DNA from: a virus
DNA length: 27,773 bases
Virus record (IMG/VR): IMGVR_UViG_3300002144_000153
Span: 1 to 27,773 of that record
Strand: one strand, 5' to 3'
Below, one piece after another: positions 31 to 24,739 of the stretch (positions are counted from its first letter, which is position 1; every line of letters starts with the position of its first letter). Under the pieces are notes generated by a model, which worked only from the letters and a program-made list of their open reading frames with translations, was not told where the DNA came from and searched no databases. A program made the translations under genes and the position numbers.

Positions 31-876
31 ATGGCTAAGCAAATCATTAACGTGGGCACGGTAGCTAATGACGGAACCGGCGATCCGATACGTTCTGCCA
101 TGACCAAAACAAACGAAAACTTTACTGAAGTTTACACATTAATAAATGATATCGTTGTACCAACTGTACCAACTGAACTAACAGATCTTGGAATTGCAGA
201 TGGTACAGTAGGTCAATTACTTCAAGCAGACGGCGACGGCACATTTTCTTTTACTACATTTGTTGCTAGTAATCCATATACTGACGCTAGTGTTAATACA
301 CATTTAAACACTGCGACTGGGTCGGCAGGAGAAGTTTTAAGCTGGACTGGGTCAGACTACGATTGGGTTGCGCAAACCGTTGCATATACTGACGCTAGTG
401 TTAATACACATTTAAACACTGGAGCTGCATCAGCAGGAGAAGTTTTAAGCTGGACTGGTTCTGATTACGATTGGATTGCTGCCGGTGGTAGCGGTTTACA
501 AACAAGGGGATCTCCATCTCAAACAACTGCTTCTTTAGCAAACAACGCTGCTGGAAATCTTAATATAACAGGCTACAAAACATACGCGCTACTTAGTATT
601 ATAACAAATAAAGCAGCGTGGATTAGAATTTATGTTAGCGACGCTGCAAGGACCGCAGATGCTTCTAGGTCTGAAGGTACAGATCCTGCGCCTGATGCTG
701 GTGTTATCGCCGAAGTTATTACTACAGGTGCCCAAACAGTTTTAGTATCACCGGGTGTTATTGGTTATAACCACGAATCACCAGTAACTACAACTATTCC
801 ATGCGCAGTTACAAACAAATCTGGTAGCACCGGAACAGTACTTGTGTCACTCGAACTTGTGCAATTAGAGGCTTAA
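31..876 (+). CDS. Small tail-fibre/tip-like virion protein with internal tandem repeat
   Basis: The 281-aa product begins with a module (residues 1-40, INVGTVANDGTGDPIR and then NENFTEVY) that I recognise as the N-terminus of several fibre-like proteins in marine T4-like phages, probably a virion attachment domain. Residues about 50-75 hold the LGIADGTVGQLLQADGDGTF linker common in such fibres. Residues about 82-155 contain two copies of a 36-residue repeat (YTDASVNTHLNT, then AGEVLSWTGSDYDW). The C-terminal part (about 160-281) is a beta-rich domain with GYKTYALL, EGTDPAPDAGVIAEV and LVQLEA, also familiar from marine phage structural proteins. There is no signal peptide or membrane segment. 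AGGAG at 21-25 lies 5 nt before the ATG and fixes the start. It shares a late unit with the protease gene that begins 3 nt after its stop. The exact position in the virion is not shown by the sequence. Confidence 0.75.
   Translation: MAKQIINVGTVANDGTGDPIRSAMTKTNENFTEVYTLINDIVVPTVPTELTDLGIADGTVGQLLQADGDGTFSFTTFVASNPYTDASVNTHLNTATGSAGEVLSWTGSDYDWVAQTVAYTDASVNTHLNTGAASAGEVLSWTGSDYDWIAAGGSGLQTRGSPSQTTASLANNAAGNLNITGYKTYALLSIITNKAAWIRIYVSDAARTADASRSEGTDPAPDAGVIAEVITTGAQTVLVSPGVIGYNHESPVTTTIPCAVTNKSGSTGTVLVSLELVQLEA
275..490 (+). repeat. Two-copy 108-bp in-frame tandem repeat
   Basis: Copies at 275-382 and 383-490 each encode 36 residues. The first 38 bases are identical in both copies, and a further 26-base block (gcaggagaag... 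to ...gactgg) is identical; the remaining bases differ. The unit is a multiple of three, so copy number could change without breaking the reading frame. Confidence 0.9.
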
Positions 877-879
877 CAA

Positions 880-2541
880 ATGCTTAATGAATGGATTGTT
901 ACTCTTCACAGAAAAGAAGACCTTGAAGGCTTTTATCAAGATATGGAAACACCGGGCGGTAATCTATTCATTCCAAACAGAGCAGTGGAAGTTGCGCACA
1001 AAAGGCCGATTAGTCGTAACACCCATTATATGTTAACACACGATGAAGTCGAGCTTATTAAAGCGGACGATAGAGTTTGGGATGTTGAATTAGCAGAATT
1101 AATCGAAATTACTACAAAACCTCACTATATAATTACAAACGGCGAGTTTGATAAAAGCACAACTGATGATTCTTCTGATATTAACTGGGGTTTGCTTAGA
1201 CATTCTGAAGAAACCAACAGAAGTAATTGGGGTGCTAACGGAACATCTCTTATAACAACTAACTTGACTATCACTGCTAGTGGAAAAAATGTTGATGTTG
1301 TTATTATAGATGGCCACATTGATCCTAATCATCCAGAGTTTGCTGCAAATTCAGATGGAAGCGGTGGAACAAGAGTTCAACAATTTAATTGGTTTTCTTT
1401 AACTAATGCCGTAACTGGTGGGTCTAATGGAACGTATGTTTATACTCCATACGTCGACGGTAGCAACGCAGATCGTACAGACGATAATAATCATGGTTGC
1501 CATTGTGCTGGAACTGTTGCTGGTAACACTCAGGGATGGGCTAGAGACGCTAATATTTACAATATTAGTCCATATGGCTCTAACCCTAATACCCTATCTA
1601 GCAGCTTTATGTGGGACTACGTGCGACAGTGGCACAACACGAAGGCTGTTAATCCTGAGACTGGTAGACGCAATCCAACGGTTACAAATAACAGTTATGG
1701 TTCTTCAATATTATCTAACTACACTGGCTCCTACACTACGGGTGCTGTAACAAGAGTAAATTATCGTGGGGTTGATTTTAATCCAGGCAGAGATTTAACT
1801 ACTGCAGAATTACAAGCTCGCGGATTTTACGCGCCAAGTTTAACTATGTCAATTCCAAATTTCTTTACATCTCGTAATGCTGATATCCAAGATGCTATTA
1901 ATGACGGCATTCTTGTTATTGCATCGGCAGGTAATAACTATTGGAAAACAGTAAACGATTCAGATCAAGATTATAATAATACTTACCAAATGACTTACGG
2001 CGGAACTAACTACACTTGGTATCTGCATAGAGGTACTGGATCTGGTGCTGGTTATGCGCCAGTTATTAATGTAGGTGCTACATCAAACGACACTCAAGAA
2101 GATAAAGCTCCTTTCTCAAATGTTGGTTCACAAGTAGATATTTTCGCAGCAGGTGAAGCTATTCAAAGTAGTGTTCATGAAAAATCTGGTGATATTGCTG
2201 ATCTAAGGAATGAAATATATAACTTTGATAAGTATCAAGGAACGAGTATGGCTGGCCCGCAAGTTGCTGGTGTTGTTGCTCTGATAGCAGAATCATGGCC
2301 TAATATTACTCAAACAGAGGCGCAGGCTTGGTTGATAAATATAGCATCTACAGATCAAATGCAAGATACTGCAACAGACGACCCGATGGATACAAACAGT
2401 CTGCAGGGCGCCGCAAACCGTTATCTAAGATGGATTAATCAAAGAGCAGTATCTGGTACTGCTTTTCCACAAAGAAACTTTAAATCAAGACCAACGTCAG
2501 GAATTACTTATCCTCGCACTAGAATTCGCAGAAGAGGCTAA
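880..2541 (+). CDS. S8 family (subtilisin-like) serine protease
   Basis: This is a 553-aa subtilase with all catalytic elements visible. Asp144 lies in VVIIDGHID, His205 in NNHGCHCAGT, the oxyanion-hole Asn352 in SAGNN and the nucleophile Ser456 in GTSMAGP. Residues 1 to about 85 (WIVTLHRKEDLEGF, then LTHDEVELIKADDRVWDVEL) resemble the I9 propeptide that folds and inhibits subtilisins before self-cleavage. No signal peptide or membrane segment is seen, so it probably acts in the infected cell or as part of the virion. The C-terminus is basic (YPRTRIRRRG). It begins 3 nt after the preceding fibre gene, with AGAGG at 867-871 as its ribosome site, and ends just before the next late promoter. It is not the T4 gp21-type prohead protease, which is an unrelated family. 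Its substrate is unknown; late expression beside fibre genes suggests virion maturation or attack on host surface protein. Confidence 0.92.
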   Translation: MLNEWIVTLHRKEDLEGFYQDMETPGGNLFIPNRAVEVAHKRPISRNTHYMLTHDEVELIKADDRVWDVELAELIEITTKPHYIITNGEFDKSTTDDSSDINWGLLRHSEETNRSNWGANGTSLITTNLTITASGKNVDVVIIDGHIDPNHPEFAANSDGSGGTRVQQFNWFSLTNAVTGGSNGTYVYTPYVDGSNADRTDDNNHGCHCAGTVAGNTQGWARDANIYNISPYGSNPNTLSSSFMWDYVRQWHNTKAVNPETGRRNPTVTNNSYGSSILSNYTGSYTTGAVTRVNYRGVDFNPGRDLTTAELQARGFYAPSLTMSIPNFFTSRNADIQDAINDGILVIASAGNNYWKTVNDSDQDYNNTYQMTYGGTNYTWYLHRGTGSGAGYAPVINVGATSNDTQEDKAPFSNVGSQVDIFAAGEAIQSSVHEKSGDIADLRNEIYNFDKYQGTSMAGPQVAGVVALIAESWPNITQTEAQAWLINIASTDQMQDTATDDPMDTNSLQGAANRYLRWINQRAVSGTAFPQRNFKSRPTSGITYPRTRIRRRG

Positions 2542-2548
2542 AAATGTT

Positions 2549-2556
2549 TATAAATA
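2549..2556 (+). promoter_or_regulatory. T4-type late promoter (TATAAATA)
   Basis: An exact TATAAATA box lies in the 39-nt gap between the protease stop and the gp8-like start, ending 24 nt before the ATG at 2581. It would drive the six-gene unit 2581-12534. A Shine-Dalgarno sequence, TAAGG at 2567-2571, follows and leaves 9 nt to the start codon. Confidence 0.8.
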
Positions 2557-2580: not shown

Positions 2581-4239
2581 ATGGCAGAAATACTAACTAC
2601 AAAATTAAAAAACGACGTTACTAGAATGTTCTATCAGGATATTCTTGATAACGAGTTTTACTTTGCTATTTCGTCAACAGTTATTGGCGAGTTGAATCGC
2701 GTCTCTGGCGTGAATGCGTTATTTAGTACAACTGATTTTTCAGAGAAGATCCTTTTTGGTAAAAAGGTGTTTGAAGATGATGTGAAATTTATGGTAAAAT
2801 ATTATCCTTGGCAAAAAGACGCAACATATGTACAATACGATAGTACTGTTGATTTAGAATCAGCAAACTTTTATGCCGTTGTTGGACCTACTAATAACGA
2901 TTCGGGCGATTATAGACTTTATAAGTGTTTGTCTAATAATAACGGCGCAGCATCTTTAACACCTCCAAATTACAATCCAGAAACTACCGAACAAATTTAC
3001 AGAATGCCTGACGGATATGTTTGGAAGTTTATGTATTATCTAACTGAACAACAGTTTGAAGCATACAATGCAACTGGTTATATTCCTCTTGTTGGAACAT
3101 TCGCTATTAACCCAGATCCTGCAGCTGACGCTAATAATGTAATTACAGGTTCAGAAGTAAGTGATATTTTTGTAGAGAATTATATCGATAACGCAGGTTA
3201 CCCTTATTTAGAAAGCGGAATTGTTTCTGGTCCTCCAGGCAATGATAGTACTATACTTTTATTCTCTAATGATTTAAGCGAGATTACAAACTATTATTCT
3301 GGTATGACAATCGTTTTAAATACTCCAAATAATGTTGCGTATACATATGTTATTGATACTTATACATGGAATGTTCAAACTGATAGAGGAACTATTAAAG
3401 TAATCGGCGACCCTAAGAATGATGGAGTTATTATTAACTCTACTTTCAAGATTTTACCTACGATTAAAATTGAAGGCGACGGTGAAGGCGCTGTTGCTAT
3501 TCCGAGAATTGTAAATGGTAGAATTACTAATATAGAACTTGTGGGGCTTGGTGGTCCAGGTAAAAATTATAGTCATATTACTGCCACTGTGATCGATCCT
3601 CCCTTTGATTTTAATCCAGATTTAAAAGACTCTATTGATATAAGAGCTGTGTTAAGACCTGTTCTTTCACCGTTTGGCGGCCACAACTTCAATTTAATTG
3701 ACGAATTATATTGCCGCCATATTTTGCTTTATTCTTATATTACCGAAACAGACAATAACAAAATTGGTAAAACAAATTCTTATTCAGCTATTGGTCTTGT
3801 TAAGAATCCTACGTTTACACCAGATCCAGTAACAGCAAATACTGCATCACCAGATGTGTTTGATAACCGTTTGCAGATTATCACAGATGACTATGGAAAA
3901 TTTGTTATAGACGGTATTGTTACTCAAAAAGATACTAATAATAACGTAGTATTCACCGGCCGTGTCCACGAAATAGATGCAAGCGCTAATTCTATTTACT
4001 TGTGTAGCTATATGGGTCCGTATACAAACACAGCAAATAACGATATATCATTAGATTATACAAAAAGTATTATCAATTCTACCGGACAAAGAATTCAGAT
4101 AAATACACCAGTAGCCAATAATGTTATTGAATCACGATATACTCAAAGATCTGGTACCGTATACTTTATGGAAGACTTCTTCCCTTTATCTAGAGAAGAA
4201 AGTTCGAGAGAAGAATATAAATTGGTCTTGGAATTTTAA
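2581..4239 (+). CDS. 8: Baseplate wedge protein, gp8-like
   Basis: The 552-aa product resembles the longer gp8 form found in T4-like cyanophages (T4 gp8 is 334 aa). Shared features from memory are an N-terminal TTKLKNDVTRMFYQDI helix, a YPWQKDATYVQYD strand region near residue 75, the YRLYKCLSNNNGAAS / TPP segment, the DGYVWKFMY motif near residue 143, and the hydrophobic end YKLVLEF comparable to T4 gp8 INILFTF. gp8 forms dimers in each wedge of the hexagonal baseplate and contacts gp10, gp7 and gp6. The insert at about 200-350 (including GLGGPGKNYSHITATV) is absent from T4 gp8. The gene leads a late unit with its own TATAAATA box; its TAA stop overlaps the TAAGGA ribosome site of the next gene. 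The family call is by recognition only. Confidence 0.65.
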   Translation: MAEILTTKLKNDVTRMFYQDILDNEFYFAISSTVIGELNRVSGVNALFSTTDFSEKILFGKKVFEDDVKFMVKYYPWQKDATYVQYDSTVDLESANFYAVVGPTNNDSGDYRLYKCLSNNNGAASLTPPNYNPETTEQIYRMPDGYVWKFMYYLTEQQFEAYNATGYIPLVGTFAINPDPAADANNVITGSEVSDIFVENYIDNAGYPYLESGIVSGPPGNDSTILLFSNDLSEITNYYSGMTIVLNTPNNVAYTYVIDTYTWNVQTDRGTIKVIGDPKNDGVIINSTFKILPTIKIEGDGEGAVAIPRIVNGRITNIELVGLGGPGKNYSHITATVIDPPFDFNPDLKDSIDIRAVLRPVLSPFGGHNFNLIDELYCRHILLYSYITETDNNKIGKTNSYSAIGLVKNPTFTPDPVTANTASPDVFDNRLQIITDDYGKFVIDGIVTQKDTNNNVVFTGRVHEIDASANSIYLCSYMGPYTNTANNDISLDYTKSIINSTGQRIQINTPVANNVIESRYTQRSGTVYFMEDFFPLSREESSREEYKLVLEF

Positions 4240-9792: not shown

Positions 9793-10980
9793 ATGTCAAA
9801 ACCATTAATTCAAAATATCATAACGACACAAACATTTCAGAATTGGTTTGACAAGACTAATGAGATGGTTGATATCATGCGCGATTCTGCCGTTACTGCT
9901 TCAGTAACGGGCGATACAACTACTGGCGATACAACCATTATCGGCGAGTTTACTGCAAATAATGTTGTAGTATTTAATGAGTTACTTACAGATTATGTCG
10001 AAGCTAGAACACCGGCATCTAGTATAGCTTTTGCTTCGCCAATTACTATCACACCTTCACTGTCACCTATTGCTGCTACATTTACATACGGTGCATCAGG
10101 TGGTCGTACAAGATATACCGATGGAACTCTTTCTTGGGATATTGGCTTCGACAATTCTACTGCGGCTAATTTCGAGATGAACCATCTCGCCGGTGGGCAA
10201 TTTTCACTATCGCCTGCTGGTGTGTTAACAGTTCCTAGTATCGTAACATCAGCTGATATTACAATCGGCACTAGCTTAACTGTAGATCAACTTATAGCAA
10301 ATAATGCAGTTTTTACTACTGCAAGCGGCGCGTTTGCCGGAACATTAACAGGTAACGTTATTGGTGACGTCTATGCTCCGAACGGCACTACTAAAGTATT
10401 TGAAAATGGAAATGGAACAAACATTCCAGCAACTTTTACAGGTAACGTGAATGGTACAGTAAGTTCATTAACAAATCATAAAACAACTAATCTTGTAGAA
10501 GGCACAAATTTATACTACACTGATGCAAGAGCTCAAGCAGCAATAACAGCTTCTACGGGTGTAACAGTCACTGGTGGCGTAATTTCAATCGGGCAGTCGG
10601 TAGGTACAACAGCTAATGTAACATTTGGTGCTGGTGGGACTGAAGTAGCTGTTTCTGCGAATGGTCAAATTGTTGCAACTGGTGATATTACTGCTTTTGG
10701 ATCTATCTCTGATATGAGACAAAAAGAAAATATCAAACCAATTACTAATGCACTAGATAAAGTTTCACAACTTGGTGGTTATACGTTTAATTATAAGCGT
10801 GATAAAGATACGCCAATGACAGGCGTAATGGCACAAGAGCTTTTAAAAGTTTTACCAGAAGCCGTTTACGAAACAACAGATCCAGAAACTGGAGAGCATA
10901 TATATGCCGTTAGACACGGAAACGTGATTGGTTTATTGATTGAAGCAATCAAGGAATTGAACGAAAAAGTAGGTAAATAA
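9793..10980 (+). CDS. Tail fibre with C-terminal S74 intramolecular chaperone
   Basis: A 395-aa fibre. Residues 10-35 (TFQNWFDKTNEMVDIM) resemble the N-terminal attachment helix of marine phage fibres. The middle is a repetitive, Thr/Gly/Ala-rich beta region with FTGNVNGTVSSLTN and NLYYTDARAQAAI (about 218-255). Residues 306-395 are a peptidase S74 domain: SDMRQKENIKPI, then GVMAQELLKVLPEAV and an ending helix GLLIEAIKELNEKVGK. In endosialidase-type chaperones the Ser of SD.R.KENI and the nearby Lys form the self-cleavage dyad; here these are Ser306 and Lys311. The domain drives trimer folding and is then cut off just before the Ser, which would release the last 90 residues and leave a mature fibre of about 305 residues. 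The start follows the preceding TAA directly; the ribosome site is weak. The polyglycine gene comes next. Confidence 0.85.
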   Translation: MSKPLIQNIITTQTFQNWFDKTNEMVDIMRDSAVTASVTGDTTTGDTTIIGEFTANNVVVFNELLTDYVEARTPASSIAFASPITITPSLSPIAATFTYGASGGRTRYTDGTLSWDIGFDNSTAANFEMNHLAGGQFSLSPAGVLTVPSIVTSADITIGTSLTVDQLIANNAVFTTASGAFAGTLTGNVIGDVYAPNGTTKVFENGNGTNIPATFTGNVNGTVSSLTNHKTTNLVEGTNLYYTDARAQAAITASTGVTVTGGVISIGQSVGTTANVTFGAGGTEVAVSANGQIVATGDITAFGSISDMRQKENIKPITNALDKVSQLGGYTFNYKRDKDTPMTGVMAQELLKVLPEAVYETTDPETGEHIYAVRHGNVIGLLIEAIKELNEKVGK

Positions 10981-12626: not shown

Positions 12627-15600
12627 ATGTCAAAGATTTCAGAATTAGGTACAATCAAAGGTGCCAATACTCGCTCTGAAGACCTTTTTGTTATCGTTAA
12701 CCTTATCCAAGGCGATGACGGTACTAAAAATATTACTAGAAAAGAACTTGTCGCGGCGATTCAGTACGAAATCTTCGATAGAATAACCATCACTGGCGGA
12801 AATATATCTGGTGTTAGAATCTTCAATTCGACAATTGAAGACAATATAATGAACCGCAATACGTTCAACGACGGAACTATTGATTCATCTTCTATTATTG
12901 CTAGTGACATCACTGGCGGCACGATGAAGGATACTGCCGTATCAAACGTTTCTATTCTTACATCAGACTTCACGAATGGTACTGGTAATAATAACGTATT
13001 TACAAACACCATTGTAGACTTTGGAGCTTTAAATAACTCCACCGGTAATAACGACGTATTTACTAACTCTACAATTGATGATTCTTTTTATAATAGAGTT
13101 ACCATTGAAGGTGGTACAGCTAATAACCTAATTCTCACAAATATTACTATTGATGAACTGATTCTAGAAGATGCTCTCATCTCGAACAGTGTAATCATTA
13201 CAACAGATTTTTCAAACGGTTCAATCTCTGATTCTACCGTAGCAAACGTTGCTATCTCAGATTCAAGTTTCGCAAACGGAAACATTAGAGATACAGATCT
13301 AGACAACGTAAATATTACAAATTCTAGATTCTCTAACGGTGAGATCTGGGATACTATTCTTTCTAATAACACTATCATCACAACTGTTATTACTGACTCT
13401 ACATTCTCAAACGGTGCAATCTCTGATTCTACTGCTAACAATATCACTATTACGAACTCTGATTTCTCGAATGGTACTGGTACTGATAACACATTCACTA
13501 ATCCTATATTAGAAAATGCAATTTTAACTGGTGCAATGAATAGTGTTATTGCTACTAATATTTCAATCGGAAGTTCTACTTCTGAAGATCTAATACAGCA
13601 AAGATCATCGATTAAAAACTCAGATATTTCAGAATCAGTTATAGCTAATTCAACTATTAATGAGTCAGAGCTTGTTGACTTTGATATGAATCTTACTAAA
13701 GTCTTCGAGCCAATGCTTGATGAAGATAGTTACTTTGCTCTAAAGAACGTCAAGACTGGCGACACAGAGAAAATGACTTACCGTCAATTATACGACGAGT
13801 TCTCCAAGAAGACAGAAAAATCTCTTAAAGTACACGTTGCTTCAGACGGTAATGATGATTATCCAGGTACAATTCTACAGCCAGTTCGCACACTAAAGCG
13901 CGCAGAGCAACTTGCTTTACAAAAAGCTGGTGGTTCATACGATCGTAACGATATTAATAACGCGGTGCATATCTCGGTAGGTCCTGGTACTTACTATGTT
14001 GATGAACCAATTGTGTTACCTGATGATTGTTCAATGACTTCAACTGCTGGTCAGTATGCTACTGTTATTCAGAAGTTGCCTGGTTACGAAAAAACAAACG
14101 GTGTTCTAGTTGGTTCTGGCAACTACGTTCAAGGTTTTGGTTATATGAACTTTGAGGTTGATAACTTTGACCAACCTGAAGGTGGCTTCGCTATTGCATA
14201 CCGTCCAGGTGCGTTGCTAAGACGTTCTCCTTATATACGAGACAGCACCCAGCTTTCAAACTTCAACCGTTTAGATGTTGAGCCACCTTTAAATCCATTC
14301 AACACTAAAGGTACAATCTTAGACTTAGGCCAAGAATTCTACTTAGTTGCTGGACATAGTCCTCAAAGTCAGTTTGAAGTAGATGATGAAGTAACGTTCT
14401 CGTCTGGTGCCACAGGTTATGTTTCATATGTCTTAGATATTGATTCAGCTCGTCAGATTTATATTAGAAACCTTAAAGGTAACGTAGAAATTGGAGATAT
14501 TCTTTATGCTCAACGAGGCGGTACAGGTACAATCGAATCAATCGGCATTGACGATTTCCCAAATAGATTGGTTGGCCGTGGTGGTGGTTGTCTTCTAGCT
14601 GACCGTGCTGTACTAGATACAGACTCACTTTACACATACGTATTATGTTTTGGTTTCACACCTCGTACTCAAAACGGTACAGGTTACGTTGCTAAGAATG
14701 GTGCTGGTGTTAACGGTATTGGTTCACTTTCAATCTTTACACGCCAAGCGTTCTTCGCACTAGACGGTGGCCAAATGACTTTGAACAACTCAGGTTCTCA
14801 GTTTGGTGACATCTCAATGCGTGCTCGTGGTAGCACAGTTATTATTAGACCGGCAAACGCAACTCAAGTTGAATTAATTGCTGATAATACTTTTGCTGAT
14901 ACTCTTGAAGCAAGCAAAGACTTAATCATAGATAACATGGTTGATTACTTGACTGCTAACACAACAACAGGCTTTAACGGTGCGCCAGGTCTTGGTTACC
15001 AAGGTTATAACGCAGACAAGTGTTTCAGAGATTCAGGATTAATTGTTGATAGTGCATCGTACGACGTTGCTACAGACGGCAACTACTGGGGTCGGTTAAA
15101 CGGTATTACATATCGTTCGCCAATCTCATACATCGTAGTAAACGATCAGATGACCGAAACAGTCGGTTCTATTAATCATATCAAAGGCGAAATAAACCAC
15201 ATCTTTGCCCAAGAGCAAAACGCAGAAGTATTAACCCGTTTAGACAGATCTCTTGACCAGACATTGAATATTCTTCAGAATGGCGAAGCCGCTGCTGATC
15301 CTATTATCTTCGCAGATACTGGTGATCAAGACGCGGTTGCAGCTCGCGAAGTTGTTCAAGATAACAGGTCAATGATCATTGATGAATTCGTAAGCTGGAT
15401 CGACAATAACGAAGAGTTCTACGCATACGATAGCGTTAAGTGCGAACGTGATATTCAAGAATATATCTTGCCAGCTACTAAGTTCGACATGATGCTTGAT
15501 ACTAACTACAACGCAGTTACTACAGGCTTAGCTTATTACGTTAACACTGCAAGAACAACTCTTGAAAATCAAAGAAACGAAACAGTTGCGTCATTTGAGA

Positions 15601-18600
15601 GACTACGCAAAACAACTGATAATCTTATTCAAGCTAACTCTGCACCAGCAGCAGTTGATGCATATAAGTCATTCAATACAATTATTAATGCTCTTAATAA
15701 TTCTGGTACAAAGTATACACCAACTAAAGCAACATACGATGCAGCAACTGGCCGCATGGTTATTACAATCGGTACTCACGATTTAACAGTTGGCAGATAT
15801 GTAAATCTTGCAAAAGAAAGCTTTACATTCAAGTGTTCTAGCGATAATTATAAGACTGAAATCAGTCATCCTAGAGTTTCAGAAAAAGCTTACCTTGCAG
15901 CACTACCTATTATAGAAGTATCTGCAAAAACTATCACTGTAAATCCAGGATTAACTGCTGCAAACTATGAACACGTATTTGTAAGTGCTTTAGATAACGC
16001 AGTATCAGTAATCGGAGAACAAATTACATTCTCAGACAATGCTAACATTGCAGTAACTAAGCGTAATGCTCGTAAGCAACTTCAAGTTAACAGAGAGTTC
16101 ATACAAGACTACATGATGTGCTGGGTAGATGACGAATTCTACTTCTACGATAGTAAGAAATGCCACAGAGATACAGAGCAGTATATATTGCCAGCAGTCC
16201 AAAGAGACTTAATGCTTGGTACCAACTATAACTCGATCCAAACTGGCGCGGCATATCGTACTAAGTCTGGTGAAGTTAGTGTTACTGATCAATTAATTCA
16301 AACAGTTGGTTCTATCAACTACTTGAAATCAGAAACTGCTGCATTGCTTACAAATACAATCGCCGAAGACAGAGCTAATCAAGCTTTTGATGAAATGACT
16401 AGATTGCTTAATAATAACGGCAAGAAGTATACTCCAACAAATGCTGTATATAGTCCTGCTTCAGGAACTACTGTAATTACAATTGGTTCACACGACTTTA
16501 ATATTGGTGACAGTATTTACTTAGAGCCTAACAGCTTAACATTTACTTGTGCGCTTGATAGCAATGCTACTGAGCACACATATCCAACAACTACATTCAT
16601 AAAATATACTCCAACTGGTGCTACATACGATCCAGCAACTGGAGAGTTTAGCGCAACAATCGGTGCAAATGCTCTTAAAGCTGGCGATCTTGTAGAGTTC
16701 AAGCCGAGCAGCATTGTGTTTACTTGCACTATGGATAACAATGTAACAAATCATCCTGCTCCTGAATCACATCACCCATTCTACAAGAAACAAATCGTAA
16801 TTGATAGAGTTGAAGGTACTACCATTTATATGAATGTTGGGGGAGTCACAAATGGTGGCGGAGTTCATACCTTTGTATCAGCCGCAACTAATGCTATCAA
16901 CGCAGAGAAAAGACATCCTGCTTATAAAAAGCCAGTTGTAATTTCTGACAGAGATGCTACAACAATCACTATTAACGTCGGCGAGTCAAGCGACACATCA
17001 GTACATACCTTTGTATCTGCAACAGCAAACGCGGTTCGTGAAGCTGATATGTGGGAAGGTAAGTTTACTCCACAAACTGCCACATACGATCCAGTATCAG
17101 GCGACATGGTATTAACCATCGGTTCACATGATTTACCAGTTGGAAAATGGATTCAAATTGCACCAGAGTCAATGATCTTTAGTTGCGATGTTGGTGGCGT
17201 AACAGGCACAGATGCTGCTCCATTATACGACCATCCTGCTTATAAAGAGCCAGTAAGAGTTAAAGCAGCTACTGCCGATACTATTACGGTCAACGTTGGT
17301 AACGCAAATGGACATGCTAACAACCACACATTCGTAAGTGCTGAAGTTGATTGTATCGATGCTAACGCTCTTTACTTCGCTGATCCTGCTAAAGTATTAA
17401 AATCATTTACTCCTACTGATGCTACATACGATCCAGTAACTGGTGTATTCGTAGTAACTATTGCAGGCCACGGTCTTACTACTGACGATCATATCGAATT
17501 ACAACCACAAAGCTTCGTATTTAGTTGTGCAGCAAACGGTGGTGGTAATGATTTCTCTCCACGTATTGGCGATTATGCATACAAGTTACCGCTTAAGATT
17601 GATTCTGTAACAACAGACACAATTACAGTTAACTGTGGTTCTGCTGGAACAAATACAGATGTGCATACTTTTGTAAGTGCTGACGAAGGCGCGGTTGTTA
17701 AGGTTAGTTCTACAACTCAAGGTGTATATGCTAGCAGAATTCTTCAGAAGAACAAAGCATATCTTCAAGCAGAAGTTACAGCTTGGCTAGATAATAACTA
17801 CTACACATACAGCAAAGCCAAATGTGAACGCGATACTGGTATTATCTTAAATGCCGTAGCAAGAGACGTTGTAACAGGTTCTAATGTTAACGCAATTTAC
17901 ACCGGCAAAGGTTACCGCATTGGTACTGTTGGTGCAAACAACTTAGTTAATACTCAACTTGTTCAAACAACTGGTGCTATTACTTGGTTAAAAGGTAAAA
18001 TCAATACTGACGTAATCGCAAATGCTACTTCAATCTCACGATCTGACGCTGCATTCGATGAAATTATCGACATTATGACTAACGGTAATGCTAACGCTGA
18101 TGAATTATACTTTGGTGAGGAAGCGGTTTCACCTGCTCACCGTATGGCTCGGGGTGCATTACAAGCTAACAGAACGTTTATCCAAAAAGAAATAGTTGCA
18201 TGGATTACAGCAAATTATCCTACCTTCACATATAACACTGTTGCTTGTGAAAGAGATATGGGTATCTTTGTTGATCTAGCTTCATGGGATATTCAACATG
18301 GTTCAAACGCTGCTACTGCTTCAAACGCGAAACTATATTTTGAAAATGCTATTCCAGTATTATCTGATAATGAAGTTGTTCCAACAAGTGAAGCTTACTT
18401 CTTTGCTGCAGACCTAATTGGCAAAATCGTTAGAAACGAAGTTGTAACCGCGTTGAATGTAACAAATACTCAAACAATCGTTGAGACAACAACATTCACA
18501 CCAACAGATGCTACATACGATCCAGCAACTGGTGACTTCGTAATGACAATCGCTGGTCACGGAATGAAATTAAATGATCGTGTTACTTTAGATCCTAACT

Positions 18601-21600
18601 CGTTCGCATTCACTTGTGCTATGGATGGCGACAACGCTTCTAAAACTTATCCAAGAGGCGGCATTGATCAATTTGCAAATAAAACATACTCTATTAAAGC
18701 AAAAACAACAAACACAGTTACTTTAGATGCTGGCGCGTCTGGTCCTAACAAATACTTTACTCCATCAGCAGCAGATTATAATGCATCAACTGGTGATATG
18801 GTAGTAACTGTTGGGCAGCACGGTCTAGGAGTTGGAAGAAACGTTGTATTAGAAAACAACTCGTTCACATTTACTTGTGATCAAGATGCTAACGTAACTC
18901 AACATACATATCCTCGTGCAGGTTCAGATCCATATGCCGGAGCATCAATTACAATTACTGCAGTTGGTTCAACAGGTCATACACCAACTAACACTGACTA
19001 CAATCCAACAACTGGTGATACTGTTCTTACAGTTGCTAGTCACGGATTTAGCAATGGCGATTACGTCTTACTAGAAGATAGCTCACTAACATATACATGT
19101 GTACTTGACGGTAACAGAGTTTCAAAATCTTATCCAAGAGCTGGAAGTGATTATGCTTCGGGTCGTTGGTTACAGGTTTCTGATGTTACAACAAATACGT
19201 TTAAAGTTAATGTAGGTCCTTCATCATATAGAGGCGCGCATACATTCATCTCAGCAACTACTAATGCTGTTAAACGTCAAGACGGAACCTTTACAATTAA
19301 TGTAGGAGATGCAGGCACTGCGTCTGGTTCGGTACACACATTTGTGTCAGCAACTACTGATGCTATTAAGCATGAACCACAATCACTACACACTTTTGTA
19401 AGTGTTGCGGCTGACGCGGTTAAAGTTGCTAATATGGCTGAAGCTTATACACCAGCTGGTATTGATTATAATCATATCACTGGTGTGATGGTAATGACAT
19501 TAGGTTCACACGCTTTAACTGAAAATGATTATGTAATCTTCGATGAAAACGCGATTACACTTAGCTGCGCAAGCAATGGCGGTGGCAACTTATCTCACCC
19601 AAGGCCAACAGATCCAATCTTTAATAAGCCAGTTAGAGTTGACGCAACTACAGCAACTACTATTACATTACAAGTCGGCCCAGCAAAGATTGACGCAGTA
19701 CATACATTTGTGTCAGCCACAGCAAACGGTGTAAGAAGATCTATCAAGCCAAGCGTTGCTGCTGAAGTTGAAAAGTTATTCTACGATCTTGGAGATACTA
19801 TCCGTAAAAACGATGGTACAATTGCAGCAATTTCTGAGCCAAGAATCGAGTCATTAACCTCGGCTTATGCACCAGCTATTATTGCAGATTACAAAGCTAT
19901 AAATGGTCAAGCTCCTAAGTATCAAACAGAAATCATTAAGTATATCAGTGAAACATATAACGGTCTAGGCTACGATGAAGCTAAATGTCCAAGAGATGTT
20001 GGCTATATTGTTGATGCAATCTCAGAAGACTTAGAGTACGGCGGAGATGTTGCAACAGTACATTCTGCAAATTACTATTACAATGGTGCAATGAGTGTTC
20101 TTGAGCCATATTCAATGTTACCTACTAAATTAGCGTTCAATCATATCGCTGATGTAGTCGAAAAAGTTGTTAAGAACGTGGTAAACGAACCAATCTTTGG
20201 TGATCGCTTTACTCCAACTAACGCAACCTACGATACAGCAACAGGAATATTAGTAGCAACAATTGGTACTCACACATTAACAACTGATGATTACATTTGG
20301 TTTACTCCAGATGCGATTACTTTCAGCTGTGATACAGGTTCTGGACCTACCAACCACGCCTCACCAGAAGCACACCATCGCTTCTATAATAAGGCATGCC
20401 CAGTCATTGGGGTTACATCAACAACTATTACATTGTGGGTAGGCGGCTTCGCTGGTGGCACTGCGCATACGTTTGTAAGCGCATTGACTGATGGATTTAG
20501 CCAGATCAATGGTAACCTTGTATATCAAAATGTTGCACTACCTGCTGCTGATGCAGCCACAGGTACTGAAGCTAAGAGACTTACAAACGTAATTGCTGAA
20601 GTTGTAGATGATAGATTAGTAATTCCAGGTTACACTGGTTCACTTGATATTTCAGTCGGTCAACAAACCCCGTATCCGTTACCAATAGCGAATCCTCTTA
20701 CAGCTCCTCTTATGGAACCAAGCAGAACATATGCTCGTAAATCATTACAGTGGAATCGCGAATTTATTCAAGAAGAAGTTGTCCGGTTTGTTAAAGATAA
20801 CAACTACACTTATGATGAAGCTAAGTGTGCCCGCGATGTTGGGTTCATTATCGATGCAATTGCAAGAGATGTTCAGACTGGTTCTGATTATCCTTCACAA
20901 TACTATGGCCGCGCTTATAGAGTAGGTACTGCTCTTGCTAATAATGTTATTACTGAGCAATTAGCAGAAACAGTAGAAGCTATCGAATATGTTCAAGCTG
21001 ATATATTAGCAAGACTGACCGGTACTGCATTAACTAGAGCAACAGCAGCATTTACTAATGTTATTAATATCATGAAAAACGGTACTGCAGGTATTACTTA
21101 CAACTTTGGTGCTGCAAACGTAGGTAGCTCAGATAGTTCTGCTACAACAGGTTTGATCTTGAATCAAGCATTCTTGCAAGAAGAAGCTATTAAATGGATC
21201 GCGGTCAACCACGGTTCATTGGTGTATGATGAAGCTAAATGCAGAAGAGATGTTGGATTCTTGATTGAAGCGGTTGCTTTCGATATTAGACATGGTTCTA
21301 ATGTTGGTGTACGCGACTTTGCTAAATTATACTTCGAAAACGGGATCAACGTTGGATTACCTCTAGCACAAAGAGCACCAACTGCTGAACTGTATGCTCA
21401 CTTAGGTGTAGTAGCAGAAAAAGTTGTTCTTAAGCAAGCAGTTACTCCTTCAACTGGAAACGTAGTAGCTCAGGTAACCTCTGGATTCGGTAACGTAGTT
21501 GGATCATCTGGTGTTGAGGTTGAAGCCTTAATCACGATAGTTAAAGATATTATTGCCGAAGATTCATTAATCAATCTTCCACAAGCGCGTGAAGCAGCAG

Positions 21601-24317
21601 TAACTGATGGAGCTGCAACTGGTTATGATCAAGAGGCTTCAGTTGCCATTATCCTCGGTCGTAAAGATGCACTTGGCGGAGCAGTTGTTCAATACTTAAG
21701 TGATAACTTTGCCTTCTTGCAATACAGCGAAGAGAGATGTCGTAGAGATACAGGATATATTGTGGACGCGATTTCACACGATATCCAATACGGCGGTAAT
21801 TCTGCAATGCACGCAACTGCTGAGCTTTACTTTAAGAACGCAGTAAATATCTTGCCAATTGACCAACGTCAAGCAACAAGAGAAGCATTCGAATATATGG
21901 GCAAAGTTGTTCAACATGTTATTCGCAACGAAGCAGTACCACGTAAAGTTGGCAAGCAATTCAGTCCATCAACTGCGTCGTACGATCCTGATACAGGAAT
22001 CTTTACTGCTACTCTTGGTTCTGGTCATAATCTTAATGTTGGCGATTATGTGCAAATTGCTCCTAATAGCATAGTATTTACATGTTCTTTAGATGGTGAT
22101 GTTGCATTGCACCCAAGCCCACAGGCAAACGACCCGTACTACAATGCTCCAAACATTATTACTGCAAGATCTGCAACAACTATTACATTACAAGTTGGTA
22201 AAGTTCCTTACGGTAGAGGTGGTGGTGCGCATACATTCGTAAGTGCGTCGGTAAATGCTATTTCGCACATCATTGGTAACCCAGTGAAACAAGAAATGCC
22301 AACTCTAGCAGCTAGAAGAACAATCGCTGCTGAAGCTATGAACCTTACATTAATGTTAGCCAAGGTTGCTGATGATAATAATCCTGGCGCAATCCCAGCT
22401 AGAGTCGAGCCATTCATTAATTGGATCGATGCTGATATGCTTGCAGAAAAGCATGTTATCGATAATGCTACTGTTCAAATGGCAACTAATCTTCAGACAT
22501 ACATCTACAATACTTACAACGGTATTAGTTACTCTAGAGAAAAATGCCGTAGAGATGTTGGCACAATGATCGATGCTATCTCACACGATGTTAACTACTC
22601 AACAAACTATGCAACAATTAGAACTGCTGAACTTTACTTTGTAAATGCTATATCAATCTTACCAGCAGATCAAAGACAACAAACTGCTAAGTTCTATACT
22701 GAAATGGCTAACACAATTGGTGATGTTGTAGTCGGTAACACCGTTAACACAACAATCTTAGGCCACTCTTCAGCATCGCAAGATTCAACAACTTACTCAG
22801 CTGCTACATCAGTAGAGCAAGAAGAAGTCAAGGATCTAGTAAGAATTGTAGAAGACGCAATCAGAAGAGATAGCATCGATGCTATCCCATCTATTGTTGA
22901 ACCTAATACTTCTTGGGTTGAAGCTAGCAGAGTTTGGGCAGGTCAAGCAATCGATGATAACCTTAGTAAATTGTCTGATGACATTACTCAATTCTTGAAA
23001 GATACATTTACAATTATTGATTACTCTAAAGCAAAATGTCGTAGAGATGCTGGTTATATTCTAGACGCGATGTCTTGGGATCTTAATTATGGCGGCAACT
23101 TAGCGACAAGATGGAATGCAAACTTCTACTTCTGGAATAACGAATTAAGAGTTCCTGAGGATACAAGAGTTGCAACTGCTCAAGCATATCGCCAACTTGG
23201 TAAGATCGTAAGTCAAGTAGTTTTGGGTGAGTATCCTGGTCAGACAATTAGAACTGAGCTCGGTACTGAAGTACAATCTACTCAAGCTGACGAATTAGGA
23301 ATGATCTTCTACAATGCATTGTTCTATAATAACGTTAACAAGCTTGGACAAACTAAATTACCAAACTTTGCTTGGGAAACTAATAGAACGTTCAAATTCG
23401 CTAAAGATATTCTTACTAATAATAAGATTAGAATCCAGCGCGAAGTTCAACGATTCATTACTTCTGAATACAAGTTTATCGATCTACCAAAAACTTATCG
23501 TGACGGAGGCAACTTCCTTAAACTTATCCAGAACGACTTCAGGTTTGAAGATCCAGTATTGGGTCCAATAGGTGGTGATAGAGCTTCAAGATCTTTTGTT
23601 GGCGCATTGTTTAATATTAATGCACAACACGTCTTCCCAGTATTTAATCCACCAGCAACATTTACTAACTGGCGCAAACTGAGATTCAAAGGTACGCTAG
23701 CTAATGCAACAATACGTGATGCACTAACGGCAGTTGCTAATCATGGTGTTAAACGTTGGGACGCATACATTATCCCAACTAACAATACTACAAATCGTTA
23801 TATTGGTGATATTACATATTGGACAGGTACAGTATGGACTGCTCCAGGCGCAGTTGGGGCTAATAATACTGATTTACTTGACGCGTTCATTGGGGCTTGG
23901 ACGCAGATGAAAACTTATATAAATAACAATATCGCTACAGATCAACCGCAAAGAGATATGGTAACCGAATTGATTGATAACGTAATTATAGATAGTGTTA
24001 TTAGACCAGACTTCTTGGTCTTTGGGTCACTAGTTGAATCCATTGCTCACCAGTTTAACGGAGCTTCAGCAGGTGTTAACAGAAACGCCTTGCCACTTAA
24101 CTTCAGAAACGTCGGTGCAGCAATTGGTGCTAATGCTTCAGTACTATCAGAAAACGGCGGCCGCATCAGATGGTCTGGGTCAGACGAATTAAACAACCAG
24201 TATTTCGCGCGCGGTCTTAAGATTAATGGTAGAACAGGTCGAATTGAAGGTCGGCCGTTCACATCATCAGTAAGAAAACTTGCAAGAAGAGCATCTAACT
24301 CAAGGGCATCTCTATAA
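12627..24317 (+). CDS. Giant repeat-built virion fibre-like protein (3896 aa)
   Basis: Domains in order: N-terminal module ISELGTIKGANTRSEDLFVIVN and GDDGTKNITRKELV (1-45), known to me from marine T4-like phage fibres; a solenoid-like region (about 50-345) with F(S/A)NG at residues 195, 215, 235, 260 and 280; a right-handed beta-helix (pectin-lyase-like) domain (about 401-750) starting VHVASDGNDDYPGT...P.RTLKRAEQL; then about 2800 residues of two interleaved repeat families. Family A (FTPT.ATYDP.TG ... FTC..D ... HTFVSA, beta) has 11 heads; family B (AKC.RD.G.I.DAI..D...G.N, helical) has 11 clear copies plus a degenerate YRDGG copy near 3625. The C-terminus (about 3640-3896; RIRWSGSDELNNQYFARGLKINGRTGRIEGRPF, ending RRASNSRASL) matches a conserved end of marine phage proteins. 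No signal peptide is seen. It is probably a long fibre or whisker; pectin-lyase folds can bind or cut sugars, but no catalytic residues are identified. TAATG couples it to the next gene. Confidence 0.85.
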   Translation: MSKISELGTIKGANTRSEDLFVIVNLIQGDDGTKNITRKELVAAIQYEIFDRITITGGNISGVRIFNSTIEDNIMNRNTFNDGTIDSSSIIASDITGGTMKDTAVSNVSILTSDFTNGTGNNNVFTNTIVDFGALNNSTGNNDVFTNSTIDDSFYNRVTIEGGTANNLILTNITIDELILEDALISNSVIITTDFSNGSISDSTVANVAISDSSFANGNIRDTDLDNVNITNSRFSNGEIWDTILSNNTIITTVITDSTFSNGAISDSTANNITITNSDFSNGTGTDNTFTNPILENAILTGAMNSVIATNISIGSSTSEDLIQQRSSIKNSDISESVIANSTINESELVDFDMNLTKVFEPMLDEDSYFALKNVKTGDTEKMTYRQLYDEFSKKTEKSLKVHVASDGNDDYPGTILQPVRTLKRAEQLALQKAGGSYDRNDINNAVHISVGPGTYYVDEPIVLPDDCSMTSTAGQYATVIQKLPGYEKTNGVLVGSGNYVQGFGYMNFEVDNFDQPEGGFAIAYRPGALLRRSPYIRDSTQLSNFNRLDVEPPLNPFNTKGTILDLGQEFYLVAGHSPQSQFEVDDEVTFSSGATGYVSYVLDIDSARQIYIRNLKGNVEIGDILYAQRGGTGTIESIGIDDFPNRLVGRGGGCLLADRAVLDTDSLYTYVLCFGFTPRTQNGTGYVAKNGAGVNGIGSLSIFTRQAFFALDGGQMTLNNSGSQFGDISMRARGSTVIIRPANATQVELIADNTFADTLEASKDLIIDNMVDYLTANTTTGFNGAPGLGYQGYNADKCFRDSGLIVDSASYDVATDGNYWGRLNGITYRSPISYIVVNDQMTETVGSINHIKGEINHIFAQEQNAEVLTRLDRSLDQTLNILQNGEAAADPIIFADTGDQDAVAAREVVQDNRSMIIDEFVSWIDNNEEFYAYDSVKCERDIQEYILPATKFDMMLDTNYNAVTTGLAYYVNTARTTLENQRNETVASFERLRKTTDNLIQANSAPAAVDAYKSFNTIINALNNSGTKYTPTKATYDAATGRMVITIGTHDLTVGRYVNLAKESFTFKCSSDNYKTEISHPRVSEKAYLAALPIIEVSAKTITVNPGLTAANYEHVFVSALDNAVSVIGEQITFSDNANIAVTKRNARKQLQVNREFIQDYMMCWVDDEFYFYDSKKCHRDTEQYILPAVQRDLMLGTNYNSIQTGAAYRTKSGEVSVTDQLIQTVGSINYLKSETAALLTNTIAEDRANQAFDEMTRLLNNNGKKYTPTNAVYSPASGTTVITIGSHDFNIGDSIYLEPNSLTFTCALDSNATEHTYPTTTFIKYTPTGATYDPATGEFSATIGANALKAGDLVEFKPSSIVFTCTMDNNVTNHPAPESHHPFYKKQIVIDRVEGTTIYMNVGGVTNGGGVHTFVSAATNAINAEKRHPAYKKPVVISDRDATTITINVGESSDTSVHTFVSATANAVREADMWEGKFTPQTATYDPVSGDMVLTIGSHDLPVGKWIQIAPESMIFSCDVGGVTGTDAAPLYDHPAYKEPVRVKAATADTITVNVGNANGHANNHTFVSAEVDCIDANALYFADPAKVLKSFTPTDATYDPVTGVFVVTIAGHGLTTDDHIELQPQSFVFSCAANGGGNDFSPRIGDYAYKLPLKIDSVTTDTITVNCGSAGTNTDVHTFVSADEGAVVKVSSTTQGVYASRILQKNKAYLQAEVTAWLDNNYYTYSKAKCERDTGIILNAVARDVVTGSNVNAIYTGKGYRIGTVGANNLVNTQLVQTTGAITWLKGKINTDVIANATSISRSDAAFDEIIDIMTNGNANADELYFGEEAVSPAHRMARGALQANRTFIQKEIVAWITANYPTFTYNTVACERDMGIFVDLASWDIQHGSNAATASNAKLYFENAIPVLSDNEVVPTSEAYFFAADLIGKIVRNEVVTALNVTNTQTIVETTTFTPTDATYDPATGDFVMTIAGHGMKLNDRVTLDPNSFAFTCAMDGDNASKTYPRGGIDQFANKTYSIKAKTTNTVTLDAGASGPNKYFTPSAADYNASTGDMVVTVGQHGLGVGRNVVLENNSFTFTCDQDANVTQHTYPRAGSDPYAGASITITAVGSTGHTPTNTDYNPTTGDTVLTVASHGFSNGDYVLLEDSSLTYTCVLDGNRVSKSYPRAGSDYASGRWLQVSDVTTNTFKVNVGPSSYRGAHTFISATTNAVKRQDGTFTINVGDAGTASGSVHTFVSATTDAIKHEPQSLHTFVSVAADAVKVANMAEAYTPAGIDYNHITGVMVMTLGSHALTENDYVIFDENAITLSCASNGGGNLSHPRPTDPIFNKPVRVDATTATTITLQVGPAKIDAVHTFVSATANGVRRSIKPSVAAEVEKLFYDLGDTIRKNDGTIAAISEPRIESLTSAYAPAIIADYKAINGQAPKYQTEIIKYISETYNGLGYDEAKCPRDVGYIVDAISEDLEYGGDVATVHSANYYYNGAMSVLEPYSMLPTKLAFNHIADVVEKVVKNVVNEPIFGDRFTPTNATYDTATGILVATIGTHTLTTDDYIWFTPDAITFSCDTGSGPTNHASPEAHHRFYNKACPVIGVTSTTITLWVGGFAGGTAHTFVSALTDGFSQINGNLVYQNVALPAADAATGTEAKRLTNVIAEVVDDRLVIPGYTGSLDISVGQQTPYPLPIANPLTAPLMEPSRTYARKSLQWNREFIQEEVVRFVKDNNYTYDEAKCARDVGFIIDAIARDVQTGSDYPSQYYGRAYRVGTALANNVITEQLAETVEAIEYVQADILARLTGTALTRATAAFTNVINIMKNGTAGITYNFGAANVGSSDSSATTGLILNQAFLQEEAIKWIAVNHGSLVYDEAKCRRDVGFLIEAVAFDIRHGSNVGVRDFAKLYFENGINVGLPLAQRAPTAELYAHLGVVAEKVVLKQAVTPSTGNVVAQVTSGFGNVVGSSGVEVEALITIVKDIIAEDSLINLPQAREAAVTDGAATGYDQEASVAIILGRKDALGGAVVQYLSDNFAFLQYSEERCRRDTGYIVDAISHDIQYGGNSAMHATAELYFKNAVNILPIDQRQATREAFEYMGKVVQHVIRNEAVPRKVGKQFSPSTASYDPDTGIFTATLGSGHNLNVGDYVQIAPNSIVFTCSLDGDVALHPSPQANDPYYNAPNIITARSATTITLQVGKVPYGRGGGAHTFVSASVNAISHIIGNPVKQEMPTLAARRTIAAEAMNLTLMLAKVADDNNPGAIPARVEPFINWIDADMLAEKHVIDNATVQMATNLQTYIYNTYNGISYSREKCRRDVGTMIDAISHDVNYSTNYATIRTAELYFVNAISILPADQRQQTAKFYTEMANTIGDVVVGNTVNTTILGHSSASQDSTTYSAATSVEQEEVKDLVRIVEDAIRRDSIDAIPSIVEPNTSWVEASRVWAGQAIDDNLSKLSDDITQFLKDTFTIIDYSKAKCRRDAGYILDAMSWDLNYGGNLATRWNANFYFWNNELRVPEDTRVATAQAYRQLGKIVSQVVLGEYPGQTIRTELGTEVQSTQADELGMIFYNALFYNNVNKLGQTKLPNFAWETNRTFKFAKDILTNNKIRIQREVQRFITSEYKFIDLPKTYRDGGNFLKLIQNDFRFEDPVLGPIGGDRASRSFVGALFNINAQHVFPVFNPPATFTNWRKLRFKGTLANATIRDALTAVANHGVKRWDAYIIPTNNTTNRYIGDITYWTGTVWTAPGAVGANNTDLLDAFIGAWTQMKTYINNNIATDQPQRDMVTELIDNVIIDSVIRPDFLVFGSLVESIAHQFNGASAGVNRNALPLNFRNVGAAIGANASVLSENGGRIRWSGSDELNNQYFARGLKINGRTGRIEGRPFTSSVRKLARRASNSRASL
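13209..13530 (+). repeat. Solenoid-type repeats of about 20 residues in giant protein
   Basis: In the giant protein, F(S/A)NG recurs at residues 195, 215, 235, 260 and 280, each followed by patterns such as I.DST..N..I..S. Weaker FTNG/TFNDG versions lie upstream (about 70-155). Spacing of 20 residues, with one of 25, and alternating small, Asn and aliphatic residues suggest rungs of a beta-solenoid related in style to pentapeptide-repeat folds. The fold is inferred. Confidence 0.7.
14896..23300 (+). repeat. Family B helical repeats (KC.RD.G.I.DA), 11 copies plus one degenerate
   Basis: The conserved Cys of C.RD lies at residues 799, 939, 1179, 1733, 1874, 2454, 2734, 2872, 3038, 3307 and 3471 of the giant protein. 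A full unit reads L..N..FI.EE...W...N...Y.Y...KC.RD.G.I.DA...D...G.N. Two sub-types follow the core: one continues G..YR.GT...N.V..QL.QT.GAI (around 1733 and 2734), the other A.LYF.NA...LP.DQR..T...F..M...V..VV (around 2872, 3038, 3307, 3471). A twelfth site reads YRDGGNFL and lacks the Cys. The units look alpha-helical. Confidence 0.85.
15711..22270 (+). repeat. Family A beta repeats (FTPT..YDP.TG ... HTFVSA), 11 heads
   Basis: Heads start near residues 1029, 1267, 1326, 1479, 1593, 1957, 2044, 2118, 2274, 2528 and 3112 of the giant protein. A full unit of about 95-115 residues reads FTPT.ATYDP.TG..V.TIGSH.L..GD.V.L.P.S.TFTC..D.N...H..P....Y.KP..I....TTTITVNVG......HTFVSA. Copies at 1267, 1957 and 2044 lack the HTFVSA tail and run straight into the next head, while extra tails without heads follow the copies at 1326 and 2118. 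Each head keeps one F(T/S/K)C cysteine except the diverged LSC copy. Confidence 0.88.
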
Positions 24318-24739
24318 TGACAATTACAACAATAGTAACATCTCAGGCGCCAGATGCTAAACCAGTCGCCAAGTCTTTTACCTTGACGACTAACTGGCAA
24401 ACGATGATTGAAGTACCAAACTATGAAGTACCGGAGCTTGTTTTCGGTGGTTCAACAACAGTAGAACCAGGAGTAGGCGAAGTTATTTCGCCTCTCATCT
24501 TATGTAACTTTACGGCTAACACCGTTGCTGTTGATGTAAGAACCCACAGGGAAGACGTTAACGCAGAATTTTGGATTATTAGAAATCTTCAAATTCCGGC
24601 TTATGACACAATTCCTTTACCGCTTAACGGTCAATTCTTTAAATCTGGTGATTTACTAGAAATTAAATGTGATACGAACTTAGCAGTAGATGCATCATTG
24701 TCCTTTACACTGGGTCAGTCTGAAGAGGATGATGTATAA
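24317..24739 (+). CDS. Small beta-rich virion structural protein (140 aa)
   Basis: A 140-aa product with alternating hydrophobic strands (SFTLTTNWQTMIEVPNY, ISPLILCNFTANTVAVDVRT, FWIIRNLQIPAYDTIPLPL, QFFKSGDLLEIKCDTN, DASLSFTLGQ) and an acidic end (SEEDDV). Small proteins of this kind (LI.CN....V.VDV, a R.L.IP....... segment, D.L......) follow the giant fibre gene in marine T4-like phages that I remember, and are usually annotated only as structural. The strand pattern suggests a beta-sandwich, perhaps a fibre collar or joint between its two fibre neighbours. It overlaps both neighbours by TAATG, with AAGGG at 24302-24306 as ribosome site, so it is probably translated in step with them. The precise role is unknown. 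Confidence 0.72.
   Translation: MTITTIVTSQAPDAKPVAKSFTLTTNWQTMIEVPNYEVPELVFGGSTTVEPGVGEVISPLILCNFTANTVAVDVRTHREDVNAEFWIIRNLQIPAYDTIPLPLNGQFFKSGDLLEIKCDTNLAVDASLSFTLGQSEEDDV

Follow-up and report, generated by a model that had tools for sequence, protein, structure and literature searches.

A subtilase zymogen gene coupled to a tail fibre C-terminal domain in T4-like phages: a possible virion-borne protease

The fibre-subtilase gene pair

The stretch of viral DNA analysed here (the window, 27,773 nucleotides) opens with two closely spaced genes that encode a 281-amino-acid fibre protein and a 553-amino-acid subtilase, followed by a gene for a gp8-like baseplate wedge protein whose best isolate matches are the gp8 proteins of Cr30 and phiM12 (Table 1). 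The stop codon of the fibre gene lies 3 nt from the subtilase start. The region further upstream can be followed in another contig of this phage (L222), which agrees at 1312 of 1313 nt, and together the two contigs place the fibre and subtilase genes exactly between gp7 and gp8. In phages phiM12 and Cr30, gp6 is followed directly by gp7 and gp7 by gp8, and the cassette is absent. The cyanophages S-H38 and S-CREM1 carry a fibre-subtilase pair in a similar baseplate setting, and in other cyanophages the pair is located among tail fibre genes elsewhere.

The late promoter sequence downstream of the subtilase gene has a counterpart, AATAAATA, that precedes the fibre gene and is present whole in the L222 contig. 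For TATAAATA, only its placement between genes hints at a late unit of its own. Its frequency was rejected as statistical proof of such a unit, as three copies were found in the window versus 3.0 expected.

Table 1. Features of the fibre-subtilase locus, in window coordinates.
Feature	Coordinates	Strand	Evidence
Fibre gene of the pair (281 aa), opening the cassette	31..876	+	ORF; phrog_9627, E=2.1e-41
Baseplate anchor of T4 gp9/gp10 type at the N-terminus, residues 1-40	31..150	+	PF07880, E=1.2e-05
C-terminal domain (CTD), protease-linked module, predicted beta-sandwich, last ~130 aa	484..873	+	Alignment of 27 sequences
S8 subtilase gene, predicted zymogen	880..2541	+	Open ORF, 553 aa, ATG start
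I9-like propeptide, residues 1-82	880..1125	+	AF2 topology; PF05922 in 1/19 relatives; dN/dS
Proteinase-K-like catalytic domain, residues 83-529	1126..2466	+	VIA-align to keratinase 5wsl
Catalytic Asp144	1309..1311	+	Codon GAT; D in 158/162, E in 4
Catalytic His205	1492..1494	+	Codon CAT; kept in 162/162
Oxyanion Asn352	1933..1935	+	Codon AAT; kept in 162/162
Nucleophile Ser456, in GTSMAGP	2245..2247	+	Codon AGT; kept in 162/162
Tail motif RPTSGITYPR, residues 537-546	2488..2517	+	Predicted disordered tail
TATAAATA, T4-type late promoter sequence	2549..2556	+	Between subtilase and gp8-like genes
gp8-like gene (baseplate wedge), flanking the cassette on the right	2581..4239	+	phrog_438, E=2.5e-47

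The subtilase has the features of an active peptidase

Profile searches identify the 553-amino-acid protein as a member of the S8 family, with a Pfam Peptidase_S8 match spanning residues 135 to 495 (E=6.5e-30; PF00082 score of 104.9 bits against a curated cut-off of 21.8) and a match to PHROG_9158 (E=4.6e-112). An AlphaFold2 (AF2) model built with 45 relatives (mean pLDDT 87.8, pTM 0.80) is assigned to the subtilisin fold by Foldseek (E 3.4e-18), and VIA-align superimposes 276 residues of the catalytic domain on keratinase 5wsl (Z 34.0, rmsd 2.2). The protein is thus a proteinase-K-like S8 subtilase with an I9-like prodomain, for which proteolysis is predicted. No signal peptide was evident at its N-terminus when the sequence was judged by eye.

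The preliminary description had placed Asp144, His205, Asn352 and Ser456 in canonical S8 motifs, and all four residues occupy the positions claimed (VVIIDGH, NNHGCH, SAGNN and GTSMAGP, respectively), with the nuance that the Asp motif reads D-G-H where D-[TS]-G is usual. We compared 162 complete homologues, which correspond to 109 distinct aligned rows. The 39 homologues collected first, with identities down to 23%, retain all four catalytic residues. Loss of catalytic residues among homologues had been named as an observation that would count against an active enzyme; what was found is a replacement of Asp by Glu in four sequences, all of one small clade, wherein His, Asn and Ser are unchanged, and the last three residues are lost in none. 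The gene is also under strong purifying selection (dN/dS of 0.11-0.17 relative to five relatives), which indicates that it is not a chance ORF. Residue conservation and purifying selection therefore support the earlier description of a complete, zymogen-type enzyme.

Among the loci collected, the Asp-to-Glu change with intact His, Asn and Ser was seen at L055:6317-8572 (S-CAM1, by eye), L075, L076, L135 and L136.

An I9-like propeptide precedes the catalytic domain

In the AF2 model, residues 3 to 71 adopt the beta-alpha-beta-beta-alpha-beta order that is the I9 topology (strands 3-9, 38-41, 47-52 and 66-71; helices 12-23 and 54-61), directly before the mature fold. Because the structural alignment of the catalytic domain begins at residue ~83, the propeptide is taken to comprise about residues 1 to 82. 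When 19 prodomains were compared with PF05922 (Inhibitor_I9), one relative gave a weak match (E=0.0027) and the window prodomain alone gave none, and this was the sole subtilase-related Pfam family matched by any of the 19. A prodomain profile search of the sequences of solved structures in the PDB gave no match. Thus, the resemblance of the N-terminal residues to an inhibitory propeptide, proposed earlier, holds at the level of predicted topology, and the family match is limited to that weak hit.

The prodomain is strongly conserved. Its dN/dS relative to five relatives is 0.05-0.13, the mean frequency of the majority residue among the 162 sequences is 0.69 (0.67 for the catalytic domain), and both the segment ISRNT (residues 44-48) and the wider motif R-x-x-S-R-N-T are near-invariant. 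Taken with the conserved catalytic residues and the selection on the whole gene, this pattern suggests that the protein is an active zymogen.

A prodomain conserved at least as much as the catalytic domain is also what might be seen if the protein were a structural or binding protein with a subtilase fold, perhaps one with an undissociated prodomain, for which proteolysis is dispensable. PCSK9, whose prodomain stays undissociated, is among the fold matches, and the clade with Glu in place of Asp exists. The invariance of His, Asn and Ser, together with the near-invariance of Asp, argues against such a role, as does the finding that this genomic slot can house a different peptidase family of active type (see below), and we regard this explanation as very improbable and the least probable of those considered here.

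The partner fibre ends in a domain that is linked to the protease

The fibre protein comprises a putative baseplate anchor and a distinct CTD. Its N-terminus gives a borderline match to PF07880 (25.9 bits; gathering score 25) and is also matched by the T4 gp10 chains 2fl8 and 5hx2 (E=6e-05). Residues 149 to 281 match phrog_15343 (E=6.2e-26). The AF2 model of the whole protein has a pLDDT of 82, which rises to ~95-98 over residues 161 to 280 of the CTD. In fold comparisons, the CTD matched beta-sandwiches of a generic kind and nothing more specific (best Z 7.3), and its assignment to a recognisable known domain was rejected; the jelly-roll of the Tk-SP subtilase is among these matches (Z 6.6) and is not diagnostic.

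To describe the pairing, we examined 76 distinct metagenomic loci, related loci included, that had been retrieved by their subtilase, with the partner playing no part in retrieval. A fibre bearing the CTD lies directly upstream of the subtilase at 75 of them, and the sole exception is a tandem second subtilase. Among isolates and single-cell viruses, this CTD is present at 11 loci and a second C-terminal type, of the kind found in P-SSM2, at six. The offset between the fibre stop and the assigned protease start falls between -8 and 0 at 118 of 140 pooled loci, and larger values are partly due to start-codon guesses. Searches in the reverse direction gave a corresponding result: where enough downstream sequence was available, the gene after the CTD encodes a subtilase at 57 of 59 loci and an S53 peptidase at the other two, in a sample limited to the 80 best-scoring of at least 583 relatives, which hence leans to close relatives of the window CTD. 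Related loci contribute to all of these linkage counts, which are phylogenetically non-independent.

The N-terminal parts of the fibres vary, forming eight clusters among 89 distinct partners, and one CTD is common to all. The linkage is therefore between the CTD and the peptidase, not between the peptidase and a whole fibre. The preliminary description had raised the question of whether the subtilase always pairs with the 281-amino-acid family; a neighbouring fibre is indeed fixed beside the subtilase, and the constant partner proves to be the CTD, with differing N-termini.

Tight coupling of gene order to one fibre domain is also consistent with the main rival explanation, in which the enzyme is an assembly protease that trims its partner fibre (for example, by cutting off the CTD or introducing a nick in it), or trims baseplate proteins, and stays bound. 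The protein has no evident signal peptide, self-cleaving fibre ends are common in phages, and a gene for an S74 chaperone fibre is present within the window. However, the alignment of CTDs drawn from different fibres (A2, 27 sequences) reveals no obvious common cleavage site, the slot can be occupied by an S53 enzyme, and a maturation enzyme need not remain on the virion. We consider an assembly role unlikely, though by no means negligible.

Seven loci from a genome scan were considered as evidence that the gene is a bacterial acquisition, a candidate that was set aside: at every locus but one a CTD fibre adjoins the subtilase, and the loci were therefore read as phage contigs inside MAGs. A tandem second subtilase-like gene directly follows the first at L102, L126, L127, L093, L084 and L211; at L126, the available portion of this second gene is not matched by Pfam S8.

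A second peptidase family can fill the protease slot

At the two exceptional loci among the CTD-retrieved set, the gene after the CTD encodes a 548-amino-acid kumamolisin-type S53 peptidase. This protein carries a Pro-kuma_activ propeptide (E=1.8e-14), matches pro-kumamolisin 1t1e over nearly its full length (E=2.5e-63) and has YPR in its tail. In all, six S53-family loci have the CTD directly upstream. Because the slot can be filled by either of two peptidase families, proteolysis would seem to be its purpose. No relative of this phage-encoded S53 zymogen was found among 50,697 phage records. Kumamolisin-type zymogen genes beside a CTD fibre were noted at L133:3757-5400, L226 and L228-L231.

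Genes other than proteases can also follow the CTD. In S-SCSM1, Sf-CH1b, S-BM3 and ACG-2014i, the gene following the CTD fibre belongs to a second, non-peptidase family, which gave no peptidase match and no Pfam match. Members of this family (L052:6403-8373, L053:6314-8611, L054:6308-8134, L059:6405-8735 and L058:6314-9103) start with MAV..NxGNTGW and also show PCPYYxPDDFV and an ARTT end, and a small protein with a YPR tail usually comes after them. The same tail region of S-BM3 (L054:1-3346) also encodes a 2648-amino-acid protein annotated as peptidase S8.

A shared C-terminal tail motif

The last residues of the window subtilase (540 to 553) are modelled with a pLDDT below 50 and overlap a motif that recurs elsewhere. 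In most main-group peptidases, the C-terminus consists of R-P-x-x-G-x-x-[YF]-P-R, or a sequence close to it, together with a run of basic residues. When 20 complete phage genomes were searched with the corresponding DNA pattern, 10 matches were obtained, all at the C-terminal ends of ORFs, versus none for a reversed control. The carriers are subtilases, the small proteins that follow the second family and one S-SCSM1 fibre, and the motif also ends small proteins of cyanophages S-CRES2 and PSS2. Judged from this distribution, the RPxxGxxYPR tail may be a docking or assembly tag. Enzymes paired with the second CTD type are without the YPR tail. This tracking of tail type with CTD type was rejected as proof of docking, since it is suggestive but confounded by descent.

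At L041, L042, L048, L049, L139 and L147, a plastocyanin/cupredoxin-like end (YYYxCQFHxxM) replaces the YPR tail, and at L100 there is a weak Copper-bind match within the subtilase.

Evidence for carriage on the virion

The record of cyanophage S-SCSM1 attaches the label "(virion protein)" to both SSCSM1_227, a fibre partner, and SSCSM1_228, a subtilase. The same label stands on ORF213 and ORF214, which the S-SCSM1 report names as detected by mass spectrometry in CsCl-purified particles (PMC9602691), and it is absent from several known structural genes. Because the label matches the ORFs named from mass spectrometry, we read SSCSM1_227 and SSCSM1_228 as having probably been detected in virions. 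SSCSM1_228 is a distant relative, with 1411 amino acids, extra domains and a subtilase domain that is ~28% identical, and its partner carries the second CTD type. The earlier proposal that the enzyme might ride on the virion is thereby supported, by these labels, for this distant homologue and its partner.

Carriage in virions, as read from the labels for this homologue, weighs against an enzyme that acts inside the host, whether it is injected or set free by the tail, or synthesised late to degrade host proteins or aid lysis. The partner is, moreover, a tail fibre domain and not a lysis or early gene. An intracellular enzyme would fit with synthesis in the cytoplasm and the lack of an evident signal peptide, and a zymogen form would spare the cell until late, but we judge this explanation improbable.

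A model for a fibre-mounted protease

On balance, we lean slightly towards the interpretation that the subtilase, a zymogen protease, is attached to a tail fibre and cuts host surface proteins, for which we infer the docking, the activation and the target. According to this model, a short fibre would be anchored to the baseplate by its gp9/10-type N-terminus and would end in the beta-sandwich CTD. The protease, made beside the fibre as an I9-type zymogen, would dock through the CTD, through its own C-terminal RPxxGxxYPR tail, or through both, and would then mature and be carried on the virion. Upon contact with the host it would cut surface proteins, much as tailspike depolymerases cut glycans. 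The preliminary description, which had offered trimming of fibre or baseplate proteins and attack on the host surface as alternatives, is supported in part, and it did not include the tail motif, the S53 replacement or the insertion between gp7 and gp8.

A broader proposal, which we advance more tentatively, is that T4-like phages share an exchangeable mount in which the CTD acts as a socket for a tagged zymogen, either S8 or, independently, S53. Such a cassette would be exchanged among tail loci, and also among phages whose hosts are cyanobacteria or other bacteria, arming the tail against host surface proteins. If these ideas are correct, then proteolysis of surface proteins such as S-layers, pili and outer-membrane proteins would be a common infection step of aquatic phages, and both the tail and the CTD would provide handles with which to find or re-assign many unannotated fibre genes.

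Relationship to known systems

Like S8 subtilases of the proteinase K/keratinase type (5wsl, 4dzt and 1ic6), the window enzyme has the catalytic triad, the oxyanion Asn, GTSMA, an N-terminal prodomain and the same fold (Z 32-34). It differs from them by ~160 residues of insertions, the D-G-H motif, the RPxxGxxYPR tail, its location in a phage tail operon and the lack of an evident signal peptide. The family itself is not new: by sequence it is the cyanophage "subtilisin-like serine protease" family (PHROG_9158/T4-GC 292; S-H38, S-WAM2 and P-SSM2), members of which are already annotated as proteases in some records, and an S8 peptidase, T4-GC518, is mentioned in PMC3037559. Unlike S-H38, S-WAM2 and P-SSM2, the phage of the window has a core that is not cyanophage-like. 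In open-licence papers, we found no description of the function of cyanophage subtilases, nor of the cassette rule, the tail motif or the S53 replacement.

Most of the enzymes known from phage tails are glycan depolymerases or murein hydrolases. The proposed role resembles that of tailspike and tail fibre depolymerases, in that a virion-borne enzyme would degrade host surface polymers, but the window enzyme is a separate polypeptide and a protease rather than a glycan enzyme. The pin and short fibre proteins gp10, gp11 and gp12 of T4, together with tip adhesins of the S16/T2 gp38 type, offer parallels in the gp9/10 N-terminal anchor and in a second polypeptide, encoded beside a fibre, that may cap it; the candidate cap in the window differs in being a peptidase. 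The T4 prohead protease gp21 is likewise a phage-encoded serine protease, of a different peptidase family, that acts in heads.

The host and other genes of the window

By subtilase sequence, every one of the closest isolates is a cyanophage or a marine single-cell virus of similar type. A cyanophage origin of the window, assumed from these matches, was rejected on the basis of gp6 (from the L222 contig) and gp8, both of which are closest to the Sinorhizobium phages phiM12/phiN3 and the Caulobacter phage Cr30; these baseplate-gene affinities argue against membership of Kyanoviridae. Sinorhizobium phages also rank first for the 771-amino-acid gp7-like gene, and three further subtilase homologues come from contigs in Rhodobacteraceae bins. 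These affinities and bins make an alphaproteobacterium a more likely host than a cyanobacterium, as judged from gene relationships.

Further along, the window contains the S74 chaperone fibre gene (9793-10980) and, in the tail region, a single ORF of 3896 amino acids (12627-24317). An Arg/Ser/Tyr-rich ORF at 25122-25484 overlaps a long ORF at 24739-27771 and is perhaps another frame of collagen-like repeats.
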